DNA from: Janthinobacterium silvisoli | GTDB lineage: Bacteria > Pseudomonadota > Gammaproteobacteria > Burkholderiales > Burkholderiaceae_D | Assembly (NCBI RefSeq): GCF_014200725.1 | Contig: NZ_JACHCL010000001.1 | Span: forward strand, 1,178,001-1,242,000 | DNA length: 64,000 nt | Reading direction: 5' to 3' | In this document: one piece after another, positions 8,834 to 30,999 of the stretch | Position numbering within the stretch: position 1 is the stretch's first letter | Layout: every line of letters starts with the position of its first letter | Made by a program: the position numbers and the translations under genes | Notes under the pieces: generated by a model | What the model was told of the DNA's origin: nothing | The model's database searches: none | Seen by the model: only the letters and a program-made list of their open reading frames with translations

Positions 8834-8881
8834 GTAGCCGGCACTTGCCATTCAGCAACTTCACCTTTTCGGGAGCGCAGC

Positions 8882-9823: not shown

Positions 9824-9842
9824 AGCAGACCACAGCTTTCGC

Positions 9843-9873
9843 TTGACCTTGCCATCGGGGGAAGGCTTACAGT
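9843..9873 (+). promoter_or_regulatory. CueR-type (19-bp spacer) copper promoter of copZ
   Basis: The -35 TTGACC (9843-9848) and -10 TACAGT (9868-9873) are separated by 19 bp, the overlong spacer typical of MerR-family promoters. The spacer carries the dyad CCTTGCC ... GGGGAAGG expected of CueR operators. The cueR gene lies 1 kb away on the opposite strand. Confidence 0.82.
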
Positions 9874-9905
9874 GAAAACACTTAACCATTACAGGAGTGC
9901 TTGTC

Positions 9906-10106: not shown

Positions 10107-10125
10107 TCGCAACAGCATCATCCAG

Positions 10126-10158
10126 ACAGCCGGCCTTTGTGCCGGCTGTTTTTATTTA
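10126..10158 (+). terminator. Rho-independent terminator after copZ
   Basis: A perfect 9-bp stem ACAGCCGGC (10126-10134) / GCCGGCTGT (10141-10149) with a 6-base loop is followed by TTTTTATTT. It also overlaps the end of the convergent glutathione S-transferase gene (stop at 10156). Confidence 0.88.
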
Positions 10159-10884: not shown

Positions 10885-10904
10885 GCGGACTCCTTTGAGT
10901 TACT

Positions 10905-11324: not shown

Positions 11325-11329
11325 CCTGA

Positions 11330-13741: not shown

Positions 13742-13776
13742 GGCAGATCCTGTACGATAGATTAACTAATGTGTTC

Positions 13777-13807
13777 AGGATCTGCTATCCAATGATGGGA
13801 AGGTCAA
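13777..13807 (-). promoter_or_regulatory. CueR-type promoter of copA (degenerate right half)
   Basis: On the minus strand TTGACC (complement of 13802-13807) is followed by CCTTCCC as at copZ, and after 19 bp by GATCCT (complement of 13777-13782). The left dyad half is good, the right half (GGATAG) is weaker than at copZ. Location just upstream of copA supports the call. Confidence 0.55.
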
Positions 13808-13832
13808 GCCTTATTTAATTGCTACAAAAACA

Positions 13833-14585
13833 TCAACGGACCACGCAATCGATCGCCGCCGCATTTTTTCCTGCCCCACCCGCAGCTGGTGCACCGCTGG
13901 GCGCGGAAAACGCGGGCGGCGGCGTGAACTGGATGTCAGGATGCGAGGGAATGATGACGGGCGGCTGCAGGATGTCCGGTGTAAAGCCGAATTGCCCTGC
14001 CGCAAAGTTTTGCGCCCCGCCCGTATTACTCACATGAATCATCCCCTCGATCACTTGCACATACAAGCCAGGCGCCAGGCTGCTCGTCGCTGCCGGTGAC
14101 GGCAACACTGACGCAGGTATTCCACCGACCAGCGTCGCCGTAAAGGTGGTGCCCCGTATACCGATGGTCGCCGATGGCGTCTTCATCTCGAAACGCTCCT
14201 TGTTGCGCTTGCCCAGCAAGCCCGTCACCGAACGCAAGCCGCCCTTGAGCAGGCTGAAGATGGCATGGTCGCCATCGGGTTGCTGCGCCTCATAGCTGAA
14301 CTGCTCGATGACGAAGCTGGTATTGGGCTTCAGGGTGATTTCGCTATTGTCGATCAGTTTGATAAGCGCATAGGTATCCTTTTCCGTCAGCAAGGTATCT
14401 CCCGACTCGACTTCGGACTTGATGGCCAGGATCTTGACCTTGCCATCGGCTTTCTTGGCGAACAAGGGGCCATTCAATTGCATCACCGTGCCTGCCACCT
14501 GCCCGGCCCAGGCCTGCATGCTGGCGCACAGCAGGACCAGCCACAGCAAAGCCTTAATTGCAGTACATTTTTTTAGTGCCGTCAT
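13833..14585 (-). CDS. Secreted FecR-domain protein at the end of the two-partner secretion operon
   Basis: The 250-residue protein starts at 14585 after AGGAAAC and has a signal peptide ending near AWA (residue 26). A FecR domain follows (GDTLLTEKDTYALIKLIDNS, ITLKPNTSFVIEQF, then the KTPSATIGIRGTTF segment). The C terminus is Pro/Ala-rich and ends with a lone Cys. It has no transmembrane anti-sigma architecture, so it is a periplasmic or exported FecR protein rather than a sigma regulator. Its start lies 32 bases inside the tpsA 3' end, so translation is coupled. FecR proteins of this kind often accompany CHASE2 cyclases, as here. Confidence 0.8.
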   Translation of the reverse strand: MTALKKCTAIKALLWLVLLCASMQAWAGQVAGTVMQLNGPLFAKKADGKVKILAIKSEVESGDTLLTEKDTYALIKLIDNSEITLKPNTSFVIEQFSYEAQQPDGDHAIFSLLKGGLRSVTGLLGKRNKERFEMKTPSATIGIRGTTFTATLVGGIPASVLPSPAATSSLAPGLYVQVIEGMIHVSNTGGAQNFAAGQFGFTPDILQPPVIIPSHPDIQFTPPPAFSAPSGAPAAGGAGKNAAAIDCVVR

Positions 14586-17500
14586 TGAATTTGTTTCCTG
14601 TTGATTGATCCGACGTGGCCACTTCCTTGACGTCATCCTTTTTCTTGTCCGGCGCCGCCGTGCTCGTCACCGTAGGCAGCAGGGGGGTGTTAGCGTGATC
14701 ACCCTGTTTGATGATGTTCAGCGCGTCATTGATGGCTGTGTTCACGCTTGGGGGAATAACGGGAGGCACGGTCACCGGCGGCACAGTACTGGGCAGGAAG
14801 ATGGCGTCAGGCATGGACACCGTGCCGCCAGGCGCCAGCAGGCTGACGTCGCTGCGCTGGCGGTTGATACGTACACCGGAGGTGCCCGTGATGTTGCCAG
14901 CCTTGGCCAGCACGCTCATGCTGGACGCGCCGGGCACCGTAAAGCTGGCGTTGCCGGCGAAGCGCACGCTGGCGCCAGCGCTGGCGGCAAAGCTGCCGCC
15001 ACTGGCTACGGTGGCGGCGCCGTCGAAGCTGATGTCGCGCCCGGCAGTCAGGCTGACATTGTGCGCTGCGTTCAAACGGGCGCCGTCCGCCAGGGCAACA
15101 TCGGTATCGGCCGTGATGCTGATATCGTTGCCGTTCACCACGCCATTGAGCGTGACCGGGCTATGCGACGTCAGTGCAACATTGCCGCCATTGCCGTTGA
15201 TATTGCCTGCCGAAATACCGCCCGTATTCTCGATGGCAATATTGCCAGCGCCACTGCTGATGGCGCCCAGGGTCAAGGTGCCGGGCGCCGACGTGTTATT
15301 GAGCACGATACCGCCATCGCCACTATTGCTGGCAGTAAAGTTACTGACCTGATTGCCGGCATTGTCCAGCACGGTGCCATTCGACGATTGCGTGCTCAGG
15401 CTCGCTGCCACGATGGCGCCAGTCTGGCGTATGGCACCATTGAGCGCACTCAAGCGCACATCGCTCGCCGCCAGGCTGGCAAAGCGCAGGTCGCCGCTAG
15501 CCTGGTTAATCACCAGCTGACCGCCCAAGTTGATTGCGCCGGCCGTCTGGCTGAAGCTATTGCCAATCGCCAGATTGCCGCTACCTCCCAGCAAGCCGCC
15601 ACTTTGTCCGTAGCGGTCGGCCGACAAGCTGCCGTTCAACTGTAAGTTGCCGCCGCTGATATTCAAGCCATCACTGCCGCCGATCACGGAGCGGTCCTGT
15701 GCGCCCTCGCCCAGACTCAAGCTGCCGCCCGTCAATACCAGGCCAGTCGCAAGATTCAGGTTCTTCAAGGTCGTGCTGCCGGCCGCCGCGTTATAGGTGA
15801 CGATGCCATTGCTATGCGAGAAATCGACGGCCAGCACGTTCGCGCCTTCCGGCACCACACCGCCATCCCAGTTCGCCGCATCGCTCCACAAGCCATTGCC
15901 GCTGCCTATCCAGGTAGACAACAGTTTTTGCGAAATCGTCGCGTGGGTGATACCGCCTGTTGTGCTCAACACATAATTACCCGCATCGGCGCCTGCCAGG
16001 CGGAAACCAGTGGCCGTGACCAGCTTGTCCGCACCCGCATTCTTGTCCGCGAAACTGCCGCTACCGCCCGCCACGCTGACCAGATCCTGGCCCAGCACGC
16101 CAGATAGCGAAGCGCTGACAGCTGCATTAGTAGTGCCGTCATAGACCTTGTTGCCGGCAATCAGGCCCGTCAGGTTCAAGGCAGCGGGCGTGATGCTGGC
16201 CAACAAACCGGTCGGCAAGACCACAAGGTAATTGCCTGCATCCTGGCCAGACAAAGCCACGCCGGTAAGACTCACGGCCTTGTTGGCGCCCACGTTTTTA
16301 TCGGCAAAACTGGCGCCAGCTGTGACGCCCAGCACATCGCCGGCAATCCGGTCATCGCCCAGCACCACACTTGCCGCCGTGCCGCCGTCATACACTTTAC
16401 TAACGCCAGTTGCCGACAGATTCAAGGCGCGCACGGCAATATCGGCGGTGGTGCTGCCGCCATGCGTATTTAATACATAGTTGCCGGCATCGGCGCCGGC
16501 AACACCAACATTCGTCACGCTGACGGTTTTGCCCGTACCGGCATTCTTGTCGCCAAATGCGGCATTGCCAGACAGGTTCAAGGCATCTCCCGCTACCCTG
16601 TCATCGCCGATATTGACGCCAGCGCTGGTATTGCCATCATAGGTTTTGTTGATGCCGCTGAAACTCACATTCAGGGTACGCGCAGCGATATCGGCCGTGG
16701 TGCTGCCGCTATGGCCGCTCAATACATAGTTGCCCGCATCGGCTCCGGTCACGCCGACATTTGTCACGCTGACGGTTTTTCCCGTACCGGCATTCTTGTC
16801 GCCAAATGCAGCATTACCGGACAGGGTCAAGACATCGCCAGCGACACGGTCATCGCCGATATTCACGCCAGCCGACGCCGTACCATCGTAAGTCTTGTTG
16901 ATGCCGCTGAAACTCACATTCAGGGTACGCGCAGCGATATCGGCCGTGGTGCTGCCACTATGGCTGCTCAATACATAGTTGCCCGCATCGGCTCCGGTCA
17001 CGCCGATATTCGTCACGCCGACGGTTTTGCCCGTACCGGCATTCTTGTCGGCAAAGCTGGCATTACCGGACAGGGTCAAGGCATCGCCAGCGACGCGGTC
17101 ATCGCCGATGTTCACGCCAGCCGACGCCGTACCATCGTAAGTCTTGTTGATGCCGCTGAAACTCACGTTCAGGGTGCGTGCGGCGATATCGGCGGTAGTA
17201 CTACCGCCATGGCTGCTCAATACATAGTTGCCCGCGTCGGCGCCAGTTACCCCAACATTCGTCACGCCGACGGTTTTGCCCGTACCGGCATTCTTGTCGC
17301 CAAATGCAGCATTACCAGCCAGGGTCAAGACATCGCCAGTGACACGGTCATCGCCGATGTTCACGCCAGCCGACGCCGTGCCATCGTAAGTCTTGTTGAT
17401 GCCGCTAAAACTCACATTCAAGGTACGTGCCGCGATATCGGCCGTGGTGCTGCCGCTGTGGCTGCTCAATACATAGTTGCCCGCATCGGCGCCCATCACG

Positions 17501-20500
17501 CCGATATTCGTCACGCCGACGGTTTTGCCCGTACCGGCATTCTTGTCGGCAAAGCTGGCATTGCCAGACAGGGTCAAGGCATCGCCAGTGACACGGTCAT
17601 CGCCGATATTCACGCCAGCGCTGGTATTGCCATCATAGGTTTTGTTGATGCCGCTGAAACTCACATTCAGGGTACGCGCAGCGATATCGGCGGTAGTCAT
17701 ACCGCCATGGCTGCTCAATACATAGTTGCCCGAATCGGCACCGGTCACGCCGATATTCGTCACGCTGACGGTTTTTCCCGTACCGGCATTCTTGTCGCCA
17801 AATGCGGCATTGCCAGACAGGTTCAAGGAATCGCCCGCTACCCTGTCATCGCTGATCTGGACGCCAGCGCTGGTATTGCCATCATAAGTCTTGTTAATGC
17901 CGCTAAAACTCACGTTCAGGGTGCGTGCGGCGATATCGGCGGTAGTCATACCGCCATGGCTGCTCAACACATAGTTGCCAGCGTCTGCGCCCGTCACACC
18001 TACATCGCTCACGCTGACGGTTTTATTAGTGCCAGCGTTCTTGTCGCCAAATGCGGCATTACAAGACAGGTTCAAGGCATCGCCCGCTACCCTGTCATCG
18101 CCGATCTGGACGCCAGCGCTGGTATTGCCATCATAAGTCTTGTTGATGCCGCTAAAACTCACGTTCAGGGTGCGCGCAGCGATATCGGCCGTGGTGCTGC
18201 CGCCATGGCTGCTCAACACATAGTTACCCGCATCGGCACCACTCACGCCAACATTGCTCACGCTGACGGTTTTGCCCGTACCCGCATTCTTGTCAGCAAA
18301 GCTCGCATTACCGGACAGGTTCAAGGCATCGCCCGCTACCCTGTCATCGCCGATCTGGACGCCAGCGCTGGTGTTGCCATCATAGGTTTTGTTGATGCCG
18401 CTGAAGCTCAGGTTCAAGGTACGTGCCGCGATATCGGCCGTGGTGCTGCCACTATGGGTATTCAACACATAGTTGCCCGCGTCAGCGCCGACAACTTCGA
18501 CACCGCTCACACTGACGACCTTGTTGGTACCCGCATTCTTGTCAGCAAAGCTGGCATTGCCAGCTAGATTCAAGACATCGCCAGCGATACGATCATCGCC
18601 GATATTAACGCCGGCGCTGGTATTGCCATCATAGGTTTTGTTGATGCCGCTGAAGCTCAGGTTCAAGGTGCGTGCCGCGATATCGGCCGTGGTGCTGCCA
18701 CTATGGGTATTCAACACATAGTTGCCCGCGTCAGCGCCGGCAACTTCGACACCGCTCACACTGACGGTCTTGTTGGTACCCGCATTCTTGTCAGCAAAGC
18801 TCGCATTACCGGATAGGTTCAAGGCATCGCCCGCTACCCTGTCATCGCCGATATTGACGCCAGCGCTAGTATTGCCATCATAGGTTTTGTTGATGCCGCT
18901 GAAGCTCACGTTCAGGGTACGCGCGGCGATATCGGCCGTGGTGCTGCCACTATGGGTATTCAACACATAGTTGCCCGCATCGGCGCCACTCACGCCAACA
19001 TTGCTCACGCTGACGGTTTTGCCCGTACCCGCATTCTTGTCAGCAAAGCTGGCATTGCCAGATAGGTTCAAGGCATCGCCCGCTACCCTGTCATCGCCGA
19101 TATTGACGCCAGCGCTGGTATTGCCATCATAGGTCTTGTTGATGCCGCTAAAACTCACATTCAAGGTGCGCGCCACGATATCGGCCGTGGTGCTGCCACT
19201 ATGGCTGCTCAACACATAGTTACACGCATCGGTACCACTCACGCCAACATTGCTCACGCTGACAGTTTTGCCCGTACCCGCATTCTTTTCAGCAAAGCTC
19301 GCATTACCGGACAAGTTCAAGGCATCGCCCGCCACCCTGTCATCGCCGATATTGACGCCAGCGCTGGTATTGCCATCATAAGTCTTGTTGATGCCGCTGA
19401 AACTCACATTCAAGGTGCGTGCCGCGATATCGGCCGTGGTGCTGCCACTATGGCTGCTCAACACATAGTTACCCGCATCGGTACCACTCACGCCAACATT
19501 GCTCACGCTGACAGTTTTGCCCGTACCCGCATTCTTTTCAGCAAAGCTCGCATTACCGGACAGGTTCAAGACATCGCCCGCCACCCTGTCATCGCCGATA
19601 TTGACGCCAGCCGACGCCGTACCATCGTAAGTCTTGTTAATGCCGCTAAAACTCACATTCAAGGCGCGCGCAGCGATATCGGCCGTGGTGCTGCCACTGT
19701 AGGCAGCCAGCACATAATTGCCGCCATCAGTGCCGGACAGCGCGCCGCTGCCGCTGTAATTAATCGTCTTGCCATGGCCGGCGTTCTTGTCGCCGAAGCT
19801 GGCCTGTACATTCGCCAGGCTGACCTGGTCGTTGCCCAGCACGCCCGCAAGCGCGGCGTTGATGCCGGCACTATTGCTGCCGTCATACACCTTGTTGATG
19901 CCGCTGACAGTGCCCAGGTTCAAAGTCGCGCGGCTGATATCGGCACTCCCGCTGGCCGTGTCGGAGGCCAGCATGTAGTTGCCGGACGCATCACCAGACA
20001 AGCCGAGACCGCTGGCGTTGACGGTCTTGCCGCTGCCGGCATTCTTGTCGAGGAATTGCGCATTGCCGCTGGCATGAATGTCGTCGCCAGCGACCACATT
20101 ACTCAGTACATACGTGGCGCCGCCAAAAGCGCTAGTGCCGTCATAGACCTTGCTGCCGCCGACGGTCACACCGAGCATGCGCGGCGTGATCGACAAGGAA
20201 TTGGCGCCAATCAGACTGATGTCGTACTTGGTCGACCACAAGCCATCGAGCGCGTAGCTGCCGACATTGCGCGCCGATTGATAGCCCAGCGTGCCGTTGG
20301 CGCCGGTATCGCCGTCGAGCAGGCCGGTGTACACCAGCGTACCGTTAAAGATGGCGAACTGGCCATCATAGACTTTGCTGGTGGCGGCGCCCGACACATT
20401 CACTTCCAGCGGTTTCAGGAACGCTTTGAGCATCGGCGTCGTATGGCCGCTATAGATGCGCCACACGGCGGAATTACTGAAATTAAAACCATTGAAACTC

Positions 20501-23500
20501 GATTGCTGCTGCATATGTTCGGCGCTCAAACCGCTGGCGCCACCATTGTCAGTTTGCTGGCCGGAACTGTCGGTATTCCAGTAAGCGCCGCTGAGCGTGC
20601 CGCCCACATTGCTGCCGACCACGCCGCCTATCGCCGCCGTAAAGCCGCTGCCATTGACCGCGCCGCTGCTAAATACATTGCTGATGGTGCCGCTATTGCT
20701 ACCGGCCAAGCCGCCCAGGTTTTCATGCACCAGTGTCATGTCTGCACCACTCGCCATGCCGACCGCGCCGGTGGCATAGGCATCGCTGATGCTGCCACTA
20801 TTGCCACCGACCAGGCCACCCACGCTGCGCGAACCACTGACATTGCCGGTCGCATACGATTGCGTGATCGTTGCCTGGTTGCTGCCGACCAGGCCGCCGA
20901 CCAACTCACGTGCGCCATTGACGGCGCCGCTGGCGGTCGAGACGGTGATCAGGCCGCTGCCGGAATTGGTGCCGGCCAGTCCGCCGACCGCAGCGCCGCC
21001 GTCCGAGTTGACACCAGTGACACCGCCGCTGGCGCCGGAATTCTTGATCACACCGCTGTTGGCGCCCACCAGGCCGCCGACGGCATTGCTGCCAGTGACA
21101 CTCGCACTGCTGAACACATTATCAAGCGTGCCACCATCGTTCAAGCCAACCACGGCCCCCACATTGTAGCGGCCCGTGATACTGCCGCCTTGCAAGCTCA
21201 GGTTGCTGACATTGCCGTTCTTCAAGCGGGCAAACAGGCCTACGCCCGAGGTACCGGGCAGATTGGCGGTATTGACCATCAAGCCGCTGATCACATGGCC
21301 AGCGCCGTCAAACATGCCGGCATAGCCTGGCACGTCACCATTGGCGATGGAGGTAAAGCCGGCCCCCTGATTCCAGTTGGTGGTGCCGCTGGCATCGATA
21401 TTGGCGGCCAGCACATAGTTGTTTGACATGTCCAGGGTATTGATGCCCTGCAAGCCGTAGATATCGGCGATACGGTAAGGTGCCGCGCTACTGCCGTCGC
21501 CACCCTGGACGCGCAGGAAACTGCCGTTCTGCAAGTTAAAATCATGCGCATAAAACGCCGGCAGGCTGGCGCTGTTTTGTTGCCACGCGCCGCCATCGAG
21601 TGTAAATTGGCGGCCCACGTTGACGGTGCCATTCGCACTGATGTTACCAGCAACCATCAAATCCTTGGCCACGGTCAAGGGACCGCCTAGATTCATTGCG
21701 CCGCTGGTACGCAGTTCCAGCAAATTCAAGCTGCTCAAGCCGCTCAAATCCAGGCTACCCAGCAAATTCAAGGGACCGTTAAAGGTATGGCCGCCGACCG
21801 TGATATGGCCGGCGGCGATGGTTTTCAATTCGGTGTCGGTCAAGCCCAGGCTAGTCGAACTGTCGGCTGCGCCGCTGCCGATATCGATTTCGCCATCGGT
21901 ACGGCGCTCCAGCGTGACTTGCCCGCCAGACAGCGAAGCTGTGCTGCCACCCAGGCTCATCTTGTCGGCTTGCAGCATCAGATTATTCGCCTGCAGGCTG
22001 CCGCCACTATCAACGGTCAATGTGCCGCCCACGCCCGTTTTCAGTTGCAGATAACTGTCAGGCTGCAGCATCGTCAACTGGTTCGACACGGTGATATTGC
22101 CACCGCTTTCCAGGTTCAGATTCTTGATACCGGTACCAGTCGTGATTTGCGCCAGATTGATTGCCTGAGGCACAGAAATATTGCCGCTATTGCTGTTACC
22201 TATATTCAATGTACCGGCAGAAATCCGGTTCAATTGATCATTCTGCAAATACAAGGCATTGGCCGCAATGGCGCCGAGAGTAATCGGTCGAGCGTTACTC
22301 CAGGGAGCCAGGCGAACGCTGGCATGGCTACCCGCACCGCCAAAATTGATGTTGCCGGAAAAACTGATGTTATCGGCTTGCAAAGTCACTGTCTGGTTCG
22401 CCACGCCGCTGCCGATCAGTTGATCGCCAGCGCCAGTGAGCACGATGCCACCTCCCGCCGTGTTGGAGCTTAGCGACAGATTGCCACTTCCGACATTGAT
22501 GCTGCCAATGCCGTTACTAGCCACATTGGCGCCGGAAATTGTTACTGCGCCACCATTGGTAGTAATCGCAGCATTAAAAGTCACATTCGAACTATTCCCT
22601 GGGAGAGTACCGGACGCAGCATCATTGGCCGACAGCGTCACCGCACCGCCATTGGTCGTAATGGCCGCATTGACATTGATCGCCTCGCCCGCCTGCGCCG
22701 TCAAGCCGACGTTCGCCTGCGCGATATTGATGGCGCTGCTGAAGGTGATGCGGTGCAGCGCCTGCAAGGTGACATTACTGGTCGCATTGGAAATCAGGTC
22801 GGCGCCGATGGAAGTCGTGCCAGTGACCGGGGCGTCGCCAAACTGATCAACGTTGCCGAGCGCGCCGCCGCCACCGGCCACCACATCGATATCGTAAGGA
22901 TCGAGCAGCCAGTTGCCCTGTTTGCCGCGGCTGGAACGGGTATCGACGCGGATGCCGTCGACCGCCAGGTAATGGCCCGAGGTTTCCACAAAACCGCCAT
23001 CGCCGGACGCGGCCCCGCCGCGCGCCGAAATACTGCCGAATACACGCGCGGTCTGGTCGCCCCAGACGATCACCTTGCCGCCATTGCCGCTGTCGACCGC
23101 ATCGGCGGCCACCGTGGCATCGCTGCCAACGAACACCTGGCGCACATTGGGAATCGCGGCATTCTTACCCTGGTAATCGCCGCCCAGCAACACCGTGCCG
23201 CCGCCCTTGGCGCCGCTGGCGTCAACGCGCGCATTGCCGGTCAAGCCGACCTGGTCGCCCAGCACCGTGACCTGGCCGCCCGTGCCGGCGCTATTGCTGG
23301 CACTGGTCACGCTGCCCGCTTCCAGCAAGGCCTTGCCGCTCGCTTGCAGGACGATCTTGCCGTTTTCACCGACCACCGCGCTGTTCGCGTTCAGGCTGCC
23401 GCGCTGGTTGATCAGCGCGCCATACATGCCGATCTTGCCGCCCTGCGCAATCACCTGGCCCACGTTGAGCGCCTGGTCCGACGGCGCCGACACGACTACT

Positions 23501-24147
23501 TGCAAACCGGGGTTGGCGGCATCGGCCAGTTGCACGCTATGGCCAGCGGCCAGCACCACTTCGCCATTGGGTGCGGTAATGATGCCGCTATTGCTGACGT
23601 TCGGCGCGATCAGCAATACCTTGCCGCCGCTGTCCGCATTGATACTGCCCTGGTTGCTGACGGCGCCGGCGCTGCTGGCGCCGTTAAAATTCATTTTGCC
23701 GGCCAGGAAGTCCTGGTTCGACAATCCGAGGCTGGAGGCCACCAGGCCATTGACGTCGACCCGTGCATCGCGGCCAAACAGCACGCCGTTCGGATTGATC
23801 AGGAATACCTTGCCATTCGATTGCAGCGCACCGAGGATCTGGCTCGGGTCTTGCCCCGTGATGCGATTAAGCACGGCGCTATTCGCGTTTTGCTGGATAA
23901 AGCGCGTCAATTCTCCAGGGTTGATCGAAAAACTCTGCCAGTTGATGATGGTGTTGGGCGTGTTCGTAATCGAAAACACATTGCCTTGCTGATTGAACGT
24001 CGCTTGGCCACTGACGACTTGCGGCAAGGTCGGGTTCGCATAGGCCGCGCCGAAGCAGCTTGATATCAGCAGCGCCAGCGCGGTGCGGCGCAAGGGCGGC
24101 GTCAGGGCGGCTTGGCGGCTAGGCAGGATGGAATCGGTATTTTTCAT
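14554..24147 (-). CDS. Giant TpsA-type exoprotein (filamentous haemagglutinin-like adhesin)
   Basis: The 3197-residue protein is the exported partner of the adjacent TpsB. A signal peptide ends near AYA (residue 37). The TPS domain follows (TFNQQGNVFSITN, NWQSFSINPGE, and NPNGVLFG at the conserved NPNG motif), then a beta-helical body. Residues about 1030-1260 hold GLUG-like repeats (VGGLVG.NSG). YDG/MBG-type units follow, including thirteen 83-residue copies (residues 1492-2570), more degenerate units, and a second beta-helical part. The end is a Pro-rich linker and a lysine-rich tail ending MYCN. It is probably a surface fibre for adhesion or biofilm. It starts 15 bases after the tpsB stop. 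Confidence 0.92.
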   Translation of the reverse strand: MKNTDSILPSRQAALTPPLRRTALALLISSCFGAAYANPTLPQVVSGQATFNQQGNVFSITNTPNTIINWQSFSINPGELTRFIQQNANSAVLNRITGQDPSQILGALQSNGKVFLINPNGVLFGRDARVDVNGLVASSLGLSNQDFLAGKMNFNGASSAGAVSNQGSINADSGGKVLLIAPNVSNSGIITAPNGEVVLAAGHSVQLADAANPGLQVVVSAPSDQALNVGQVIAQGGKIGMYGALINQRGSLNANSAVVGENGKIVLQASGKALLEAGSVTSASNSAGTGGQVTVLGDQVGLTGNARVDASGAKGGGTVLLGGDYQGKNAAIPNVRQVFVGSDATVAADAVDSGNGGKVIVWGDQTARVFGSISARGGAASGDGGFVETSGHYLAVDGIRVDTRSSRGKQGNWLLDPYDIDVVAGGGGALGNVDQFGDAPVTGTTSIGADLISNATSNVTLQALHRITFSSAINIAQANVGLTAQAGEAINVNAAITTNGGAVTLSANDAASGTLPGNSSNVTFNAAITTNGGAVTISGANVASNGIGSINVGSGNLSLSSNTAGGGIVLTGAGDQLIGSGVANQTVTLQADNISFSGNINFGGAGSHASVRLAPWSNARPITLGAIAANALYLQNDQLNRISAGTLNIGNSNSGNISVPQAINLAQITTGTGIKNLNLESGGNITVSNQLTMLQPDSYLQLKTGVGGTLTVDSGGSLQANNLMLQADKMSLGGSTASLSGGQVTLERRTDGEIDIGSGAADSSTSLGLTDTELKTIAAGHITVGGHTFNGPLNLLGSLDLSGLSSLNLLELRTSGAMNLGGPLTVAKDLMVAGNISANGTVNVGRQFTLDGGAWQQNSASLPAFYAHDFNLQNGSFLRVQGGDGSSAAPYRIADIYGLQGINTLDMSNNYVLAANIDASGTTNWNQGAGFTSIANGDVPGYAGMFDGAGHVISGLMVNTANLPGTSGVGLFARLKNGNVSNLSLQGGSITGRYNVGAVVGLNDGGTLDNVFSSASVTGSNAVGGLVGANSGVIKNSGASGGVTGVNSDGGAAVGGLAGTNSGSGLITVSTASGAVNGARELVGGLVGSNQATITQSYATGNVSGSRSVGGLVGGNSGSISDAYATGAVGMASGADMTLVHENLGGLAGSNSGTISNVFSSGAVNGSGFTAAIGGVVGSNVGGTLSGAYWNTDSSGQQTDNGGASGLSAEHMQQQSSFNGFNFSNSAVWRIYSGHTTPMLKAFLKPLEVNVSGAATSKVYDGQFAIFNGTLVYTGLLDGDTGANGTLGYQSARNVGSYALDGLWSTKYDISLIGANSLSITPRMLGVTVGGSKVYDGTSAFGGATYVLSNVVAGDDIHASGNAQFLDKNAGSGKTVNASGLGLSGDASGNYMLASDTASGSADISRATLNLGTVSGINKVYDGSNSAGINAALAGVLGNDQVSLANVQASFGDKNAGHGKTINYSGSGALSGTDGGNYVLAAYSGSTTADIAARALNVSFSGINKTYDGTASAGVNIGDDRVAGDVLNLSGNASFAEKNAGTGKTVSVSNVGVSGTDAGNYVLSSHSGSTTADIAARTLNVSFSGINKTYDGNTSAGVNIGDDRVAGDALNLSGNASFAEKNAGTGKTVSVSNVGVSGTDACNYVLSSHSGSTTADIVARTLNVSFSGINKTYDGNTSAGVNIGDDRVAGDALNLSGNASFADKNAGTGKTVSVSNVGVSGADAGNYVLNTHSGSTTADIAARTLNVSFSGINKTYDGNTSAGVNIGDDRVAGDALNLSGNASFADKNAGTNKTVSVSGVEVAGADAGNYVLNTHSGSTTADIAARTLNLSFSGINKTYDGNTSAGVNIGDDRIAGDVLNLAGNASFADKNAGTNKVVSVSGVEVVGADAGNYVLNTHSGSTTADIAARTLNLSFSGINKTYDGNTSAGVQIGDDRVAGDALNLSGNASFADKNAGTGKTVSVSNVGVSGADAGNYVLSSHGGSTTADIAARTLNVSFSGINKTYDGNTSAGVQIGDDRVAGDALNLSCNAAFGDKNAGTNKTVSVSDVGVTGADAGNYVLSSHGGMTTADIAARTLNVSFSGINKTYDGNTSAGVQISDDRVAGDSLNLSGNAAFGDKNAGTGKTVSVTNIGVTGADSGNYVLSSHGGMTTADIAARTLNVSFSGINKTYDGNTSAGVNIGDDRVTGDALTLSGNASFADKNAGTGKTVGVTNIGVMGADAGNYVLSSHSGSTTADIAARTLNVSFSGINKTYDGTASAGVNIGDDRVTGDVLTLAGNAAFGDKNAGTGKTVGVTNVGVTGADAGNYVLSSHGGSTTADIAARTLNVSFSGINKTYDGTASAGVNIGDDRVAGDALTLSGNASFADKNAGTGKTVGVTNIGVTGADAGNYVLSSHSGSTTADIAARTLNVSFSGINKTYDGTASAGVNIGDDRVAGDVLTLSGNAAFGDKNAGTGKTVSVTNVGVTGADAGNYVLSGHSGSTTADIAARTLNVSFSGINKTYDGNTSAGVNIGDDRVAGDALNLSGNAAFGDKNAGTGKTVSVTNVGVAGADAGNYVLNTHGGSTTADIAVRALNLSATGVSKVYDGGTAASVVLGDDRIAGDVLGVTAGASFADKNVGANKAVSLTGVALSGQDAGNYLVVLPTGLLASITPAALNLTGLIAGNKVYDGTTNAAVSASLSGVLGQDLVSVAGGSGSFADKNAGADKLVTATGFRLAGADAGNYVLSTTGGITHATISQKLLSTWIGSGNGLWSDAANWDGGVVPEGANVLAVDFSHSNGIVTYNAAAGSTTLKNLNLATGLVLTGGSLSLGEGAQDRSVIGGSDGLNISGGNLQLNGSLSADRYGQSGGLLGGSGNLAIGNSFSQTAGAINLGGQLVINQASGDLRFASLAASDVRLSALNGAIRQTGAIVAASLSTQSSNGTVLDNAGNQVSNFTASNSGDGGIVLNNTSAPGTLTLGAISSGAGNIAIENTGGISAGNINGNGGNVALTSHSPVTLNGVVNGNDISITADTDVALADGARLNAAHNVSLTAGRDISFDGAATVASGGSFAASAGASVRFAGNASFTVPGASSMSVLAKAGNITGTSGVRINRQRSDVSLLAPGGTVSMPDAIFLPSTVPPVTVPPVIPPSVNTAINDALNIIKQGDHANTPLLPTVTSTAAPDKKKDDVKEVATSDQSTGNKFNDGTKKMYCN
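16438..19674 (-). repeat. Thirteen tandem 249-bp repeats inside tpsA
   Basis: The unit encodes 83 residues starting AARTLNVSFSGINKTYDG and ending SGSTTADI. Thirteen units follow without any length change (13 x 249 = 3237 bp), at residues 1492-2570. They differ only by point changes such as NTSAGV/TASAGV, NIGDD/QIGDD and NTHSG/SSHGG. More divergent copies flank them (residues about 1330-1491 and 2571-2740). Exact period and high identity point to recent expansion and homogenisation by recombination. Assembly from short reads would be unreliable here, so the copy number should be treated as provisional. Confidence 0.95.
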
Positions 24148-24162
24148 GAATTATTCTGGCTA

Positions 24163-25791
24163 CTAATAGGACAGGGCCAGCCTGAAATGCAGGCGGTTGC
24201 TGTCGTTCCGGCCGGTGTCACCGGCATTCAGTACGTGCGCGTAATCGATTTGCAGATTGGCATAACGGCTCAGCAGCAAGCGCGTCCCGATACCAAAACT
24301 GCCGATCGCATTGCCTTGCGCTTCGCCCGGCAAGCCATGATTGCGGTTCAGCCAGGCGCTGTCGTAAAACACCAGCCCGCGGCACTGAGACAGGGCCGTA
24401 TTGCTACACCAGCTGGGCGTGTAAATTTCCAGATTCAGGCTGGCGCCGGAGTCGCTCGATACCTGGCGCTCGTCGAAACCGCGTACCGACGCAGCACCGC
24501 CGGCGCCGAACTGTTCTCCAGGCACCAGCGCATCGGGCGTATATTGCGCATTGAAAATACTGCGCAACTGCCATTCATTCGATAGCACCTTGCCCCAGTT
24601 CATGCTCAGGCGTGCCGTGCTGTAGCTCGCCTTGGCGCCAGCCCGCGCCAGGTTGAAATCTGCCTGGGTGCCGTGGCGGCCACCGGGCAGGTTGCGCGAC
24701 AGGGTCAGCGCCAGGCTGGCTTCGCCATCCTCATGCGTCCAGGCGCCCACATAGGCCACGCTGAGTGGATGCACGGTCACGTCGCCGCCCAGTTCAAAGC
24801 CCAGCAATTGCACGCTATTCTGATACGCCTTGTAATCGATGCCATAGATCAGCTTGGGCTCATAATTGCCGGTTTTGGCGAAGTTCTGGTTGTAGCGCAG
24901 GCCGGCCATGGTGCCACGGCCACTGACCGCCAGGTCAAAAATACCGGCCGCCACGGTGCCCGAATCCACATTCGAATAACTGGCAAATGCATCGATCGAA
25001 TCACCGAGCGCATACAGCGGCACATGGTAGCCAAGACCATAAATGGCTACCTTGTCCGGCTTTTCCAGCGAAGTGGTGTATTGCAGGCTGGCGACATGGT
25101 CGCGGCCCCACAGATTGGCGTTTTGCAACACCACGCCGGCATGCGTCTTGCCAGTTTGCCCACTGCCCGTATTGTCCAGGTTCAGCATGGCTTTCCACGG
25201 ATTTTCATCGGCCACCGACACGGCCGCGTCGAGCTGGCCCTCAAGCTCGCTGGCAGCCAGCTTGACTTCCATCTTGCGGGCCGGATTCTCATTCGCCAAT
25301 TTCAGGCTTTTTCCCAATGCCGGCAAGTTCGGCGAATTGCCCACGCGCAGCGAGGGCAAGGCGTTCAGCACATTGGCCTCATCGACATGGCGGTTACCGG
25401 TGATCGTAATCTGGCCAATCGCCGTTTCCACCACGGTCAGTTGCACCACGCCCCGTTCAAGCTCCTGCTCCGGCAAGGTGACTTGCACCACCGTGTAGCC
25501 GCGTTCACGGTAAGCGTTTTCCAGCGCTTCGACGGCATGCTGAATGTCGCCAAAATCGCGCTGCGTACCGGTAAATGGCGTCAGCAAGGCGGACAGCAAT
25601 GCGGGCGACAGCAAGGTATTGCCCTGCACATCAAAACGGGCGATGTCGAAATGGGGAATGGCAATATCCGTCACGGGGGCAGGCAGCGCAGCCTCATTTT
25701 GCCCTGCAGCCGATGGGGCAATTGCGCAGGCAGCGCCCGCGACGAACAAAAGCGCCGAGCCCGCAAGCAGGTGCACCAAACGATAATTCAT
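24163..25791 (-). CDS. TpsB-type outer-membrane translocator (ShlB/FhaC family)
   Basis: The 542-residue protein has a signal peptide (to about residue 23), a POTRA domain (FDVQGNTLLSPALLSALL to ERGVVQLTVVE, residues about 53-122), a second POTRA (GQITITGNRHV onward) and a 16-strand barrel. The barrel carries the conserved VRGFDE motif (loop L6) and ends in LALSY, an aromatic C-terminal residue as required for barrel insertion. It secretes TpsA across the outer membrane by recognising its TPS domain. The next gene downstream is tpsA after 15 bases. No clear ribosome binding site precedes the ATG. Confidence 0.92.
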   Translation of the reverse strand: MNYRLVHLLAGSALLFVAGAACAIAPSAAGQNEAALPAPVTDIAIPHFDIARFDVQGNTLLSPALLSALLTPFTGTQRDFGDIQHAVEALENAYRERGYTVVQVTLPEQELERGVVQLTVVETAIGQITITGNRHVDEANVLNALPSLRVGNSPNLPALGKSLKLANENPARKMEVKLAASELEGQLDAAVSVADENPWKAMLNLDNTGSGQTGKTHAGVVLQNANLWGRDHVASLQYTTSLEKPDKVAIYGLGYHVPLYALGDSIDAFASYSNVDSGTVAAGIFDLAVSGRGTMAGLRYNQNFAKTGNYEPKLIYGIDYKAYQNSVQLLGFELGGDVTVHPLSVAYVGAWTHEDGEASLALTLSRNLPGGRHGTQADFNLARAGAKASYSTARLSMNWGKVLSNEWQLRSIFNAQYTPDALVPGEQFGAGGAASVRGFDERQVSSDSGASLNLEIYTPSWCSNTALSQCRGLVFYDSAWLNRNHGLPGEAQGNAIGSFGIGTRLLLSRYANLQIDYAHVLNAGDTGRNDSNRLHFRLALSY

Positions 25792-25814
25792 GAGTGAAGA
25801 TTTCTTGTAGTTGC

Positions 25815-25855
25815 ATGAGCACGACGCTGGCCAGGCGCAACACCGTTGTGCTCAT
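25815..25855 (-). promoter_or_regulatory. Inverted repeat in the tpsB leader region
   Basis: ATGAGCACGAC (25815-25825) is nearly the reverse complement of GTTGTGCTCAT (25845-25855); the single mismatch would be a G-U pair in RNA. It lies 24 bases upstream of the tpsB ATG in the 251-bp gap behind the cyclase gene. It could be an operator or an mRNA hairpin that affects tpsB translation. I see no certain promoter in the rest of the gap. Confidence 0.4.
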
Positions 25856-26042
25856 CAATTGATTGAATGCAAAGTTTAGACGGGTTTTCGTTTCCAGTCA
25901 GAACTTTCTACTATTGGAACAGCGATTTCCGCCATCACCGTGCGAATCTGCGTCCAAGTCCCTGAAAAAGCAGCTTTTTTCACAACAACAGTAGCGGACA
26001 GGCCAGCATGCCGGGCCAGCATTTTACCTCTTTATGCGCCAC

Positions 26043-28307
26043 CTACTTGCTGTCAAAAATAGTCACGCCATCCCAGTCATCCGGCGGCGATTGGGCCAGG
26101 TAGCCAGACAGCCGCGCCGCATACAGCCGATACAAGCCATCCTGTGGCTGCTGGCGCAGCAATTGATCGACCAGTTGTTGCGCGCCGGCCCACTCGCGTG
26201 CGCGCAGCAAGACCAGCACACGCGACCAGCATTCCAGGCGCGCCAAGGCAGCCGCGTCCATATCTTCCTGCAAGCCCAGCGGCTCGAAAATGGCCACCGC
26301 TTGCTGCTTGCCCTTGACCGCTACCCGGTCCAGTTCCCGGTACGCAAATTGCGGTGCGGCATGGCGGGTGGTGGCACTGACAACGATGCCAACGCCATAC
26401 GTCTTGGTAATGCCTTCCAGGCGCGCGCCCAGATTGACGGCGTCGCCCATCACCGTGTAGGCGCGGCGGATGCGCGAGCCCATGTCGCCCACATGCATCA
26501 GTCCCGTATTGATGCCGATGCCGATCTGCAACGCAGGCCAGCCACGGGCGATAAAATCGTCATTCAGGCGCGCCGCGCTGCGCTGCATCAGCAAGGCGCT
26601 GGCGACGGCCCGGCTGGCATGGTCGGGGAAGGCCAGCGGTGCTCCCCAGAACGCCATCACGGCGTCGCCGATGTATTTGTCGAGCGTGCCGCCATGGCTG
26701 TCGCGGATATCTTCCGACATGGCCGTCAGGTACAGATTGATGTATTCGCGCAAGGCCGCCGGCGCCATGTTTTCCGAGATCGCCGTAAAACCGCGCACGT
26801 CGGCAAACAGCACCGTCAATTCGCGGTTCTCGCCTTCCATGGTGTAGCGCTGGGGATTGTCAGCCATCTCGGCCACCAGTTCGGGCGCCACATATTCGCC
26901 AAAACGGGCCACCAGCGCACGTCCCTTGCGCACCTCGAAAAAGTAGCCCCAGGCCACGTTCACGATAAACAGCGCGACGATCAGCAACAGCACGACCGCA
27001 CTATCGACCAGCATATCCTGCACCCGGTACAGATACAGATTAAAGCCCAGCGTGGCGCCCAGCGCGCCCAGTGCCAGCAGCATGGACCAGGCTGGCGACA
27101 GTACCGCCAGCGCGCCGGCCAGCGCCAGGCCGGCCAGCAGCACCTGGCCCAGTTCGATCGCCAGCGCGTAATCGGGACGCGATTTGAAGCGGCCATCGAG
27201 GATGGACTTGATCAGGTTGGCGTGCACTTCCACCCCCGGATATTCGGCATTGACGGGCGTGGCCCGCACATCGTTCAAGCCGGGCGCGCTGGTGCCGACC
27301 AGGGCGATCACCTCTTTCAACAAGGCAGGCGGTACCTTACCCTGCAGCACGTCGGCCGCCGAGACATAGGCAAACGCGCCGCCCGATGGCCCGCCACTGC
27401 CGCGGTATTGCACGGTGGTGGTCAGCGCTTCGCCCACCGGAATGGCGCGCGGGCCTTGCGGCGTGAACATCAGTAATTGATCGAGGCCGCCATTGGCCAG
27501 TTCGGCGGCCGACATATTGTCAGCGCTTTGCGTGAAATGCGGTGTGATGGCGCGCGCCTTCAGGTACACGGCAGCCGTCGCCAGCGACAGCGATGGATAA
27601 TAGGCGTTGCCTATGCGCTGCAGCAAGGTTGACGAGCGCACCACGCCATCGGTATCGGTCAGCGCCGTAAAAATGCCGGCGCCGCTGGCAGCATTCTGCA
27701 ACTGCGCAATATTGGCTTCGTAGCCACGCGCTGAAAACGCCGTGACAGCACGTCCGTTCAAGCTTGCTACAGTGAACGCCGGCGCCGGCAGCACGCCCTT
27801 CTTTTGCTGGTCAGACACATTAAAACCCAGCACAACCGGCTGGCCGCGCATCGCTTGCGCCAGCAAGCCATCGTAATCCATGCCGGGCTTGAGTCTGGCC
27901 AGCTGGGCATCAAAACCAGGCACGCCGGCCAGCTCATGCTGAGCCAGCTTTTCCAGTACGGCATAACCGGAACTGGTGTCGGCTTCCGGAAACGAGATAT
28001 CGTAACCGAGCGCCGCCACGCCATAATGCCGCGTCAACTGCGTCACTAGCTGCGCCTGGATATCGCGGCTCCAGGGGAAACGGCCGATACGGGTCAGGCT
28101 GTTTTCATCGATGTCGACAATCACGATGCGCCGGTCCAGCACGGCCGGCTCGGCGCGCATGCGCAAGTCGCTCAGCATGGCGTCCAGCCGGATAATCGTT
28201 GCGCTATCGACCAGGCCGATGCTCAGACTTGCCGCCAGCATGGTCAGCACCAGGCCTGCCAGCCAGCGCGCGCCGTATTTTTTCAGTTGGCCGGCCAAGG
28301 CCGCCAT
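26043..28307 (-). CDS. CHASE2-domain class III adenylate/guanylate cyclase
   Basis: The 754-residue membrane protein has one N-terminal helix, an extracytoplasmic CHASE2 sensor domain (about residues 35-350, with VIVDIDENSLTRIGRFPWSR and the late GTSAPGLNDVRATPV motif), three membrane helices (about 375-450) and a class III cyclase domain (about 480-660). The cyclase domain shows metal-binding LFADVRGFTAIS, DKYIGDAVMAFWGAP and YTVMGDAVNLGARLEG, so it looks catalytically complete; cAMP is the likelier product. A helical C-terminal tail follows. Its ATG overlaps the stop of the upstream HD-GYP gene (TGATG), showing coupling. A GTG one codon earlier is possible. Confidence 0.9.
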   Translation of the reverse strand: MAALAGQLKKYGARWLAGLVLTMLAASLSIGLVDSATIIRLDAMLSDLRMRAEPAVLDRRIVIVDIDENSLTRIGRFPWSRDIQAQLVTQLTRHYGVAALGYDISFPEADTSSGYAVLEKLAQHELAGVPGFDAQLARLKPGMDYDGLLAQAMRGQPVVLGFNVSDQQKKGVLPAPAFTVASLNGRAVTAFSARGYEANIAQLQNAASGAGIFTALTDTDGVVRSSTLLQRIGNAYYPSLSLATAAVYLKARAITPHFTQSADNMSAAELANGGLDQLLMFTPQGPRAIPVGEALTTTVQYRGSGGPSGGAFAYVSAADVLQGKVPPALLKEVIALVGTSAPGLNDVRATPVNAEYPGVEVHANLIKSILDGRFKSRPDYALAIELGQVLLAGLALAGALAVLSPAWSMLLALGALGATLGFNLYLYRVQDMLVDSAVVLLLIVALFIVNVAWGYFFEVRKGRALVARFGEYVAPELVAEMADNPQRYTMEGENRELTVLFADVRGFTAISENMAPAALREYINLYLTAMSEDIRDSHGGTLDKYIGDAVMAFWGAPLAFPDHASRAVASALLMQRSAARLNDDFIARGWPALQIGIGINTGLMHVGDMGSRIRRAYTVMGDAVNLGARLEGITKTYGVGIVVSATTRHAAPQFAYRELDRVAVKGKQQAVAIFEPLGLQEDMDAAALARLECWSRVLVLLRAREWAGAQQLVDQLLRQQPQDGLYRLYAARLSGYLAQSPPDDWDGVTIFDSK

Positions 28308-29929
28308 CACGGCCTGTATCCGGGAATGGCCGCCTCGTCGACAGCATCGATCTGGCTGGGATCCATATGTTTTTCAGCAAAGGCGCGGTACACCTTGCTG
28401 CGGATAAACACATCGAACAGATCGGGATCGATATGGCCATTCAGGCTGAAATTACCGAGGATGCGCAGCGATTCGGACAGCGACTTGCCTTTTTTGTAGG
28501 GCCGGTCGCGCGCCGTCAGCGCTTCAAAGATATCGGCAATCGCCATCAGCCGCGCCGGCACCGACATCTGCTCTTTCGTCAAGCCGCGCGGATAACCCTT
28601 GCCATCCATGCGCTCATGGTGGCCACCCGCGTATTCCGGCACTTTCTGCAAGTGTTTCGGCCACGGCAAGGCTTCCAGCATGCGGATCGACACGCTGATA
28701 TGGTTGTTGACGATGGCCCGTTCGGCCGCCGTCAAGGTGCCGAAACGGATGGTCAGGTTTTCCGTCTCGTCGGCATCAAGAAAGTCGCGCAGCTCGCCGT
28801 CGGCTGCGCGCCAGCGGCGCCGCGCAATCTGGCGCACCCGCTGCTGGTCGGCCTCGGCCATGCCTTCGCCACCGATATTGGCACGGCGGATAAAGTCGCG
28901 CTCCTCGCGCAAGGCAACCTGCTCGCCAGCCAGCGCGACGGCTATCGCATCGACCTGGTCGGGATGCGTGATTTGCCGCTGCAAGGCCGCGATCTCGGCG
29001 TCACGCAGCAGCACTTCGTACCGCGTGTCGATCAGGGCGATGCGGTCAAAGATGGTTTCCAGCTTGGTGGCCTTGTCGACCACGTGCACGGGCGTGGTGA
29101 TCTTGCCGCAATCGTGCAGCATGCCGGCCAGCCACAGTTGCTTGCGCTCATTGTCACTCAGGCGAAACTCGGCCAACGGCCCCGTTTGCGTGGCGTGCGC
29201 CGCGTCCGCCAGCAACATCGTCAGTTCCGGTACGAACTGGCAATGGCGGCCCGTGTAAGGCGATTTTTCATCGATGCCGATATTGATCAGCTTGACCAAG
29301 GATTCCAGCAATTCTTCCAGCTGCAGGATCAGTTGCTGGTTCGTCAATGCCACGCCCGCCTGCGCCGCCAAGGCCTCGATGAAACGCTGGTCGGTAGCGG
29401 AGAAAGCACGCACCTGGCCGGTGGCCTCATCCTTGGCATTGACCAGCTGCAGCACGCCGATCAAGTCCCCTTCATGGTCGCCCATGGGCACTGTCAATAT
29501 CGATTGCGTGTGATAGCCATGGTGGCGGTCGAATGCCTGCATGCCAGAAAAATTGAAGGCTTCCTCACGGTACACATCGGCAATATTCACGCAGCGGCGC
29601 ATATGGGCTGCATAAGCCGCCACCGAAGCCAGGTTAGGCTGTCCCTGCGCGTCGAACAGGGGCACGCCCGGTACGCCGATATCGCTACCCAGGCCGATAC
29701 CCAGGCTATCGTTGACGCTGATATGGAAATCGAGCTGGCGCCCGTCGGCCGCTGGCCGGTACAGGGTCGCACCATCGGCGCCGCTCATGCTCTTGGCCAG
29801 CAGCACGATGCGCTGCAGCAGCGGCCCGATATCGCGCCCCTGACCGCCCAGGCCATGGCCGAGAGCGACGCTCAGTTCGGTCAACTGCTCCAGTCTGTGG
29901 GCGATTTTCTCGGGGTGCAACTGCGGCAT
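28307..29929 (-). CDS. GAF-domain HD-GYP phosphohydrolase
   Basis: The protein (540 residues from the ATG at 29929; the frame is open to 30037 but neither start has a good ribosome binding site) has an N-terminal GAF sensor domain (about residues 20-200, with SILTVPMGDHEGDLIGVLQL). The HD-GYP domain follows: HDCGKITTPVHV for metal binding, a long insert, HHERMDGKGYPRG as the HHE/GYP motif, then ADIFEALTARDRPYKK. HD-GYP enzymes mostly degrade c-di-GMP. It is translationally coupled to the CHASE2 cyclase, which links two second-messenger activities in one operon. Function of the GAF ligand is unknown. Confidence 0.87.
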   Translation of the reverse strand: MPQLHPEKIAHRLEQLTELSVALGHGLGGQGRDIGPLLQRIVLLAKSMSGADGATLYRPAADGRQLDFHISVNDSLGIGLGSDIGVPGVPLFDAQGQPNLASVAAYAAHMRRCVNIADVYREEAFNFSGMQAFDRHHGYHTQSILTVPMGDHEGDLIGVLQLVNAKDEATGQVRAFSATDQRFIEALAAQAGVALTNQQLILQLEELLESLVKLINIGIDEKSPYTGRHCQFVPELTMLLADAAHATQTGPLAEFRLSDNERKQLWLAGMLHDCGKITTPVHVVDKATKLETIFDRIALIDTRYEVLLRDAEIAALQRQITHPDQVDAIAVALAGEQVALREERDFIRRANIGGEGMAEADQQRVRQIARRRWRAADGELRDFLDADETENLTIRFGTLTAAERAIVNNHISVSIRMLEALPWPKHLQKVPEYAGGHHERMDGKGYPRGLTKEQMSVPARLMAIADIFEALTARDRPYKKGKSLSESLRILGNFSLNGHIDPDLFDVFIRSKVYRAFAEKHMDPSQIDAVDEAAIPGYRP

Positions 29930-30108
29930 GGTGGGCGCTGGGAAGATAAGGAAACAGGCGCCAGTGTAACTGCTGGTTTGCCGCACTGTACATTGATTAA
30001 CCGCAACAAACTGAAATAACTTTCTGTGTCGCAGCATAAATAAATATTGGCTTTGACCATATTGATTAGAATAGAATCAACAGTCATTACACAGTAACAA
30101 GGTATTGC

Positions 30109-30999
30109 ATGAAATTCACGTTCAGGGGCGTCCGCGGCTCTATCCCCTCCCCTGGCCCCCTTACGGCACGCTATGGCGGCAATACCACTTGCATCGAGGT
30201 ACGCAGCGATGACGATGATCTGATCATCCTCGACGCTGGCAGCGGCATCTTTTCATTGGCACAACAGTTACCGGCTGGCCAGCGCGTCGATGCGCACATC
30301 TTCATCACGCACAGCCACTGGGACCACATCCACGGCCTGCCCATGTTTACGCCACTGTTCGTGGCCGGCAACCGGGTGCGCCTGCATGGCGCGCTCGACA
30401 CCGTCAGCGGACGCGGCATCGAACATGTGATGGCGGTGCAATTGCAAAGCAGTTACTTTCCCGTCAGCGAAGCGGCCATGGCGGCCAGCATCGAATACCG
30501 CACCATCGCCGAACACGACACCGTCATGGTCGGCCAGGCGCGCGTGCGCGGCGTGCAGATGAACCACCCGGTCGTCAACCTGGGCTACCGCATCGACTGC
30601 GCAGGCGTTTCGCTATTCTTCAGCGGCGACCATGAACCGTTCTACAACCCCTACCCGCCCGGTCACGTTGACCACGCCGTCTGCGCTAGCCACAACGCTA
30701 CCCGCCAGGCACGCATCGAGACCATGGTGGCCGGCGTTGACGCCCTGATCATGGATTGCTCGTATACGCGCGAGGAATACCCGGACAAACAGGGCTGGGG
30801 CCACGGCACGTTCGACGCCGCATTCGAGCTGGCCCTGCGCTGCGGCGCCCGCCGCCTGTACTGCACCCACCACGAACCGACCCGCAGCGATGACCAGCTG
30901 GAAGCCGTGTTCGCTGATGTGCAGGCCCGCTATCAGGATAGAGTGAACGGCTTGCAAGTGTTTTTGGCGTATGAGGGATTGACGGTGGCGCTGGCTTAG
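30109..30999 (+). CDS. Metallo-beta-lactamase-fold hydrolase
   Basis: The 296-residue protein has the MBL fold: RGVRGSIPSPGPLTARYGGNTTC at the start (the G[ST]..SPG pattern of the PhnP/phosphodiesterase-like subgroup), ILDAGSG, the zinc motif THSHWDHIHG, a later His in MNHP, Asp in SGDHEP, and a late His in YCTHHEPTRSD. The fold is usually a phosphodiesterase or ribonuclease-like hydrolase; genes of this subgroup often sit near cyclase or HD-domain genes. It is divergent from the HD-GYP/cyclase unit with about 180 bp between the chosen starts. A cyclic-nucleotide phosphodiesterase role is possible but unproven. Confidence 0.82.
   Translation: MKFTFRGVRGSIPSPGPLTARYGGNTTCIEVRSDDDDLIILDAGSGIFSLAQQLPAGQRVDAHIFITHSHWDHIHGLPMFTPLFVAGNRVRLHGALDTVSGRGIEHVMAVQLQSSYFPVSEAAMAASIEYRTIAEHDTVMVGQARVRGVQMNHPVVNLGYRIDCAGVSLFFSGDHEPFYNPYPPGHVDHAVCASHNATRQARIETMVAGVDALIMDCSYTREEYPDKQGWGHGTFDAAFELALRCGARRLYCTHHEPTRSDDQLEAVFADVQARYQDRVNGLQVFLAYEGLTVALA

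Follow-up and report, generated by a model that had tools for sequence, protein, structure and literature searches.

To our knowledge, only for a few systems is it understood how giant two-partner secretion (TPS) adhesins are kept on the cell and how the cell senses their deployment. Here we analyse a TPS locus of Janthinobacterium silvisoli (assembly GCF_014200725.1, contig NZ_JACHCL010000001.1, positions 1,178,001-1,242,000). The whole stretch of 64,000 nt is called the window, and coordinates are relative to it. The locus codes for the adhesin TpsA, its partner TpsB, a FecR-domain protein and a group of putative signalling enzymes. TpsA and the FecR protein each end in a tail with one conserved cysteine, and on balance we favour a role for FecR as a plug in the periplasm, a protein of its own that is linked by a disulfide to the C-terminus of TpsA and coupled to signalling by cyclic AMP (cAMP) and cyclic di-GMP (c-di-GMP).

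The closest described systems are of several kinds. The TPS adhesins HMW1, HxuA and CdrA are retained through cysteines at the C-terminus, which act in the periplasm (PMC5422565, PMC7616799, PMC11898600, PMC13192263). Reviews differ on this device: one has a disulfide loop inside the tail, whereas in another the tail is bonded to TpsB. The RTX adhesins LapA and MpIBP have an N-terminal retention module, described as a periplasmic stopper for a giant adhesin, with c-di-GMP involved (PMC12805831, PMC10865825, PMC12077191). The BiofilmReg operon of Burkholderia, according to the available excerpt, consists of a response regulator, a LysM-FecR protein and a CHASE2 histidine kinase, and is linked to biofilm (PMC5192318). 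Finally, the FecR domain is shared with the FecR/PupR anti-sigma regulators of cell-surface signalling.

The present locus resembles the cysteine hooks in having a TPS adhesin with a C-terminal cysteine device, which we propose to be periplasmic. It differs in that TpsA has a single tail cysteine, for which another protein, FecR, is the candidate partner. The two neighbouring C-terminal cysteines of the HMW1/CdrA intramolecular hook are not seen, as the window TpsA has only one cysteine among its 60 C-terminal residues. It resembles LapA and MpIBP in a weak sequence match, in what may be a related fold of FecR and, as proposed here, in the stopper role, but their plug is part of an adhesin that is type 1-secreted and cut by LapG, whereas here it is a separate protein and the adhesin is of type Vb. 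LapG (PF06035) was not found in the window genome, and release of the LapG/CdrA type was rejected on that ground. As in BiofilmReg, a FecR protein is coded beside a CHASE2 receptor in Burkholderiales; however, that receptor is a histidine kinase rather than a cyclase, its FecR protein carries LysM, and the operon, as described in the excerpt, has no TPS adhesin, HD-GYP or MBL gene. The window proteins gave no LysM match, and no response regulator was recognised by eye among the translated flanking genes. In contrast to the FecR/PupR regulators, no cytoplasmic anti-sigma part or inner-membrane span precedes the FecR domain, and the protein has a signal peptide and sits with an adhesin. We regard the system as a variation on adhesin anchors already described, in which two proteins would together do the work of the HMW1/CdrA cysteine hook or of the LapA retention module; as defined, neither family includes it. 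The new part is the predicted disulfide-linked FecR plug: a literature search, confined to openly licensed papers and thus weak evidence of absence, listed no paper that combines a TPS adhesin with either a FecR protein or a CHASE2 cyclase.

The six open reading frames (ORFs) of the locus are all intact. On the minus strand, in order of transcription, lie the genes for a GAF-HD-GYP protein, a CHASE2-adenylate cyclase, TpsB, TpsA and the FecR-domain protein, with a gene for a metallo-β-lactamase (MBL)-fold protein divergent. This is the gene set listed in the earlier note, including the overlap of FecR with TpsA, and Pfam bears it out, every gene being above the curated cut-off. The features of the adhesin and its proposed plug are as follows.

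14554-24147, minus strand: tpsA, 3197 aa; N-terminal TPS domain, GLUG stretch, 17 YDG stretches and a basic tail ending ...KKMYCN
14560-14562, minus strand: TGC codon of the TpsA tail cysteine, Cys3196, second residue from the end
13833-14636, minus strand: fecR-like gene; signal peptide, FecR domain (PF04773, 42.5 bits) and a Gly/Ser/Ala-rich tail ending ...IDCVVR
13845-13847, minus strand: TGC codon of the FecR tail cysteine, Cys247 when counted from the ATG at 14585, fourth residue from the end and the sole cysteine after the signal peptide

The likely start of FecR is the ATG at 14585, just 5' of the signal peptide (judged by eye), which gives an overlap with tpsA of 32 nt, or 83 nt from the first ATG. 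A programmed TpsA-FecR frameshift at an A-run in the overlap was judged by eye and rejected, as neither the frames nor the FecR signal peptide fit.

The paired C-terminal cysteines, which the earlier note missed together with the apparently plug-like fold of FecR, recur in other loci. In loci from the family, the cysteine is second from the end in every TpsA with a readable end, and four from the end in every TPS-linked FecR. Named genomes were also scanned with a FecR alignment, using search patterns that exclude the cysteine, and the best 80 of at least 547 relatives were kept. Controls were 60 TPS regions away from CHASE2 loci plus the second TPS of the window genome, from 110 TPS matches in 60 genomes. 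Deduplication left 132 complete TpsA: 76 with a FecR gene at most 4 kb downstream, 48 without one (at least 4 kb in view) and eight with too little sequence. A single lone C-terminal cysteine is present in 75 of the 76, against 3 of the 48; the classical hook pattern of two close C-terminal cysteines occurs in four of the 48. The exception among the 76 is L119 (L and G denote loci and genomes), whose FecR is a different one. As for the three lone-cysteine TpsA without a downstream FecR, L246 has a FecR directly upstream, L230 has an atypical end (...EKCSDD), and L240 is considered below. The second TpsA of the window genome (3669 aa) has no cysteine and no adjoining FecR. L119 (11254-16608), L245 and L247 have a different C-terminal cysteine pair (...DPCQ...), 35-37 residues apart, and the FecR that adjoins the L119 TpsA is a distinct protein of 527 residues.

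On the FecR side, the tail cysteine is present in 73 of the 76 TPS-linked proteins. It is missing in L119, in L179 and in one FecR of L135, a locus with two, where the first lacks the cysteine and the second carries it. It is found in 38 further FecR that have no complete TpsA upstream in view or are duplicates, and many of the ORFs upstream of these end in a lone cysteine. For nineteen FecR without the tail cysteine, no TpsA is in view upstream either: 17 come from loci that lack TPS (seven being Duganella proteins from the same named-genome search), L039 is the L119 gene again, and L172 lies just before a tpsB-tpsA pair. None of the eight proteins read among the 16 other FecR of the window genome has a tail cysteine. 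The residue is invariant in an alignment of 64 FecR sequences, whose members were chosen for having it.

Three further observations, on cysteine number, tail charge and tail spelling, speak for an intermolecular bond. The number of cysteines after the signal peptide is odd in 110 of 111 tail-cysteine FecR (not deduplicated; 100 distinct C-terminal strings), which have either one cysteine or one plus internal pairs, mostly CX3C; the tail cysteine is thus unpaired within its own protein. FecR-linked TpsA have an odd number in 66 of 76 cases, compared to 16 of 56 others. The 73 pairs with both cysteines use 25 different spellings of the tail pair; TpsA is basic just before the cysteine in 59 of them, and FecR is negative around its cysteine in 46 and neutral in 24.

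The FecR-like protein has the FecR domain fold, preceded only by a signal-peptide-like helix (9-26). No further membrane segment was seen after the signal peptide, and a lipoprotein was rejected because no lipobox was found by eye. The earlier note described FecR as secreted; these features fit a periplasmic protein. A structure model was built from 64 sequences, a 27-sequence version being poor (pLDDT, predicted local distance difference test, 62). By fold, as it appears, and weakly by sequence, the protein resembles the 'cell surface anchoring domain' of an adhesin; the retention-module profile gave 27 bits on the window FecR, against a curated cut-off of 50. Because of the paired cysteines and this apparently plug-like fold, FecR probably has a structural role as a partner of the adhesin and is not a regulator alone.

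CHASE2 is present in at least 91 of 116 genomes of the family, with one in the window genome. From the matches listed, 60 CHASE2-centred stretches were taken, mostly of the window's longer CHASE2 type, with upstream stretches added for 19. Annotation by profiles built from the window proteins gave 50 CHASE2-cyclase loci, window included, some of those without the full set being cut by contig or stretch ends. MBL is found in 45 of them, HD-GYP in 36, TpsA in 35, TpsA together with FecR in 33 (L039 with a different FecR) and all six genes in 28. There are three gene orders. The first, with MBL divergent from HD-GYP, cyclase, TpsB, TpsA and FecR, is that of the window and of each of the six congeners sampled. 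In the second order, cyclase, TpsB, TpsA and FecR are followed by MBL and HD-GYP. In the third, TpsB, TpsA and FecR are upstream of MBL, HD-GYP and cyclase, with a divergent GAF gene between in six loci (GAF-MshEN-T2SSE in L105, the one locus scanned). The six-gene arrangement is not due to chance, and since the set survives rearrangement, a functional link between the genes can be argued. The co-occurrence of TpsA/TpsB, FecR and CHASE2 cyclase, raised from the window alone, is thus conserved across genera and gene orders.

A second sample consisted of 60 genomes not chosen for the trait. Full-length FecR were taken at E ≤1e-60 (which excludes G057, G026 and others, where the match was partial or weaker) and full-length cyclases at E <1e-180 (excluding long weak matches in G031 and G050), giving 22 FecR of this type and 25 cyclase orthologs. 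All 22 FecR adjoin a TPS match. The cyclase is present in 21 of the 22 genomes with a TPS-type FecR and in four without, while 34 genomes have neither (Fisher 3e-11, only a guide as the genomes are related). G019 has TPS and FecR without such a cyclase, so the TPS-FecR pair can stand alone. Among the named-genome matches listed, the best FecR relative is that of Janthinobacterium sp. S3T4 (92%). The TpsA-FecR pair was seen in many Betaproteobacteria and a few metagenome-assembled genomes labelled otherwise. The length of TpsA varies widely within the genus (about 1700-3700 aa for complete ORFs; L032-L037 and window), apparently by repeat number.

The cyclase and the HD-GYP protein are probably live enzymes, judging by active-site residues that are nearly invariant. 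In these counts, for which some genomes occur in both sequence collections, the two metal Asp of the cyclase and its Lys/Thr pair, Asn and Arg, which we take to have the corresponding catalytic roles, are conserved in 82-83 of 83 sequences. The nearest solved relative of the cyclase by sequence is a phytochrome-adenylate cyclase fusion. In HD-GYP, 12 of 13 positions of the HD and HHE..DGxGYP metal site were counted and are kept in 57-58 of 58 sequences; the 13th, an Asp, is present in the window protein. The first six metal-site positions of MBL are kept in 69 of 69. The suggestion that MBL is the matching cAMP phosphodiesterase is unsupported (NF041851, 49.2 bits against a cut-off of 400). 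Apart from this, the earlier note's idea of a second-messenger-linked adhesin is plausible, given the conserved co-occurrence, the kept catalytic residues and the cyclase found with nearly every TPS-type FecR.

One or two genes for CRP-family cAMP receptors are present in the distant loci L191 (5570-7156) and L176 (9140-9814), upstream of a gene that by eye looks FtsK-like. They are flanked by a large ORF with the end ...PSCN and by a FecR with the end ...ECVVRR. We infer that the large ORF, whose TPS domain would be outside the view, is TpsA; if so, these loci independently tie cAMP to the TpsA-FecR pair. FecR genes directly before CHASE2 genes with no adhesin in view also occur. In L082, L083, L084 and L087, a FecR gene is directly upstream of a CHASE2 protein matching the HD-GYP profile.

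What was observed is that the genes are linked, the tail cysteines go together, the cysteine number is odd, the FecR fold resembles that of a plug and the catalytic residues are kept; the proposal goes further. TpsB would export the long TpsA adhesin, whose last residues, basic and with one lone cysteine, would remain periplasmic and form a disulfide with the FecR tail cysteine, a bond that we consider likely. FecR, proposed as a stopper because its fold appears to be like that of RTX-adhesin retention plugs, would keep the fibre from leaving the TpsB pore; retention of TpsA by this means is reasonably probable. The MBL, HD-GYP and CHASE2-adenylate cyclase genes would form a control module in which CHASE2 reads FecR and adjusts cAMP, and HD-GYP lowers c-di-GMP. 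That CHASE2 senses FecR is put forward tentatively, because genes for CHASE2 and FecR proteins repeatedly adjoin and because the Burkholderia biofilm operon has a LysM-FecR protein together with a histidine kinase of the CHASE2 kind (PMC5192318). It is conceivable, though we would not expect it, that the detachable plug is itself the signal: the cyclase would distinguish fibre-bound from free FecR, and the cell would tell, across the outer membrane, a loaded from a held or a lost adhesin and answer by cAMP, in some lineages by way of CRP, and by c-di-GMP, with release possibly by disulfide reduction rather than LapG cleavage. If FecR is such a plug, a separate protein would replace the built-in hook as an anchoring route, FecR proteins outside iron signalling would gain a concrete job, and adhesin retention would be tied to a cAMP/c-di-GMP module.

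The alternative that survives best is that FecR serves mainly in signalling, as a ligand or sensor of the PupR/FecR kind, the cysteine link reporting the state of the adhesin to the CHASE2 cyclase while TpsB does the retention. We think this rather unlikely, as the distant loci L186, L188, L195, L196 and L200 keep both cysteines of TpsA-FecR with no CHASE2 in a 10-kb view, and the plug-domain match of FecR fits a structural role.

It is also possible, but quite improbable, that the two tail cysteines are not bonded together and that each pairs elsewhere (TpsA with TpsA, FecR with FecR, or either with TpsB or another thiol protein). That the two tails meet is indeed a deduction, and a conserved cysteine pair is present in 73% of 71 TpsB of the FecR type; however, 54% of 26 other TpsB have it too, and the TpsB cysteines were rejected as partners since the pair is not specific to FecR-type loci. 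Lone-cysteine TpsA without a nearby FecR agree with such pairing, and they count against the plug as well. L240 (G001, 4418-15976), the third lone-cysteine TpsA mentioned above, ends ...KLYCN and has no FecR within 4 kb or near by genome search; it is a real exception. The other TPS locus of G001 has a FecR, which the L240 TpsA may share. L248, one of the eight TpsA with too little sequence, ends ...KLYCN at a contig end, in a genome without FecR at E 1e-60. A further difficulty is that in 46 of the 76 pairs (the window and 45 others) all candidate FecR starts lie inside tpsA, so that the reading frames constrain each other. On the other hand, one tail cysteine predicts the presence of the other, and the tails of TpsA and FecR tend to opposite charge, both of which argue for a bond between the two proteins.

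This overlap might suggest that the genes merely hitch-hike together and that conservation of the TpsA tail is due only to the FecR signal-peptide codons, but that is very improbable and largely refuted: the lone TpsA cysteine is kept in 29 of 30 non-overlapping pairs, on which ground frame overlap was rejected as the cause of the pairing overall, the FecR tail is far beyond the overlap, and the six genes recur in three orders.

The remaining features of the locus are listed here.

16420-19736, minus strand: tandem array in tpsA, 249-bp period, 13.3 copies, in the region read as YDG repeats by Pfam
24163-25791, minus strand: tpsB, POTRA_2 and ShlB/FhaC barrel
25792-26042, minus strand: gap of 251 nt between cyclase and tpsB
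26043-28310, minus strand: CHASE2-class III adenylate cyclase, GTG start, catalytic set D, K, D, T, N, R present
28307-30037, minus strand: GAF-HD-GYP phosphohydrolase, metal and GYP residues intact
30109-30999, plus strand: divergent MBL-fold hydrolase (RNase Z-like/Lactamase_B_2)

The assignment to two-partner (type Vb) secretion follows from matches above cut-off, in TpsA to PF05860 (109 bits) and TIGR01901 (79.8 bits) and in TpsB to PF08479 (POTRA_2, 71.7 bits) and PF03865 (ShlB/FhaC barrel, 98.9 bits). The other Pfam scores are 182 bits for CHASE2, 69 for Guanylate_cyc, 131 for HD_5, 55 for GAF and 71 for Lactamase_B_2. The HD-GYP and cyclase genes overlap by 4 nt, and tpsB and tpsA are 15 nt apart. 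The gap between cyclase and tpsB gave no Rfam match and no sigma-70-like promoter on the minus strand, and a riboswitch or promoter there was rejected for these reasons. The flanks look ordinary: one has a copper-type P-ATPase next to a MerR-like regulator, the other a replicative helicase and a phosphate transporter that is PiT-like (names by eye).

Other signalling genes accompany the module in related loci. GAF-MshEN-T2SSE ATPase genes (PilB-like, possibly c-di-GMP-binding) recur beside MBL, HD-GYP and cyclase (L105, 16751-19219; L052, 12774-15242; L071, 16990-19710). In L052 (4003-6981), a CHASE2-Ser/Thr protein kinase gene is directly before the CHASE2-cyclase gene and MBL, and similar tandem pairs are present in L055, L061, L063 and L067, the kinase domain having been checked in L052 only.

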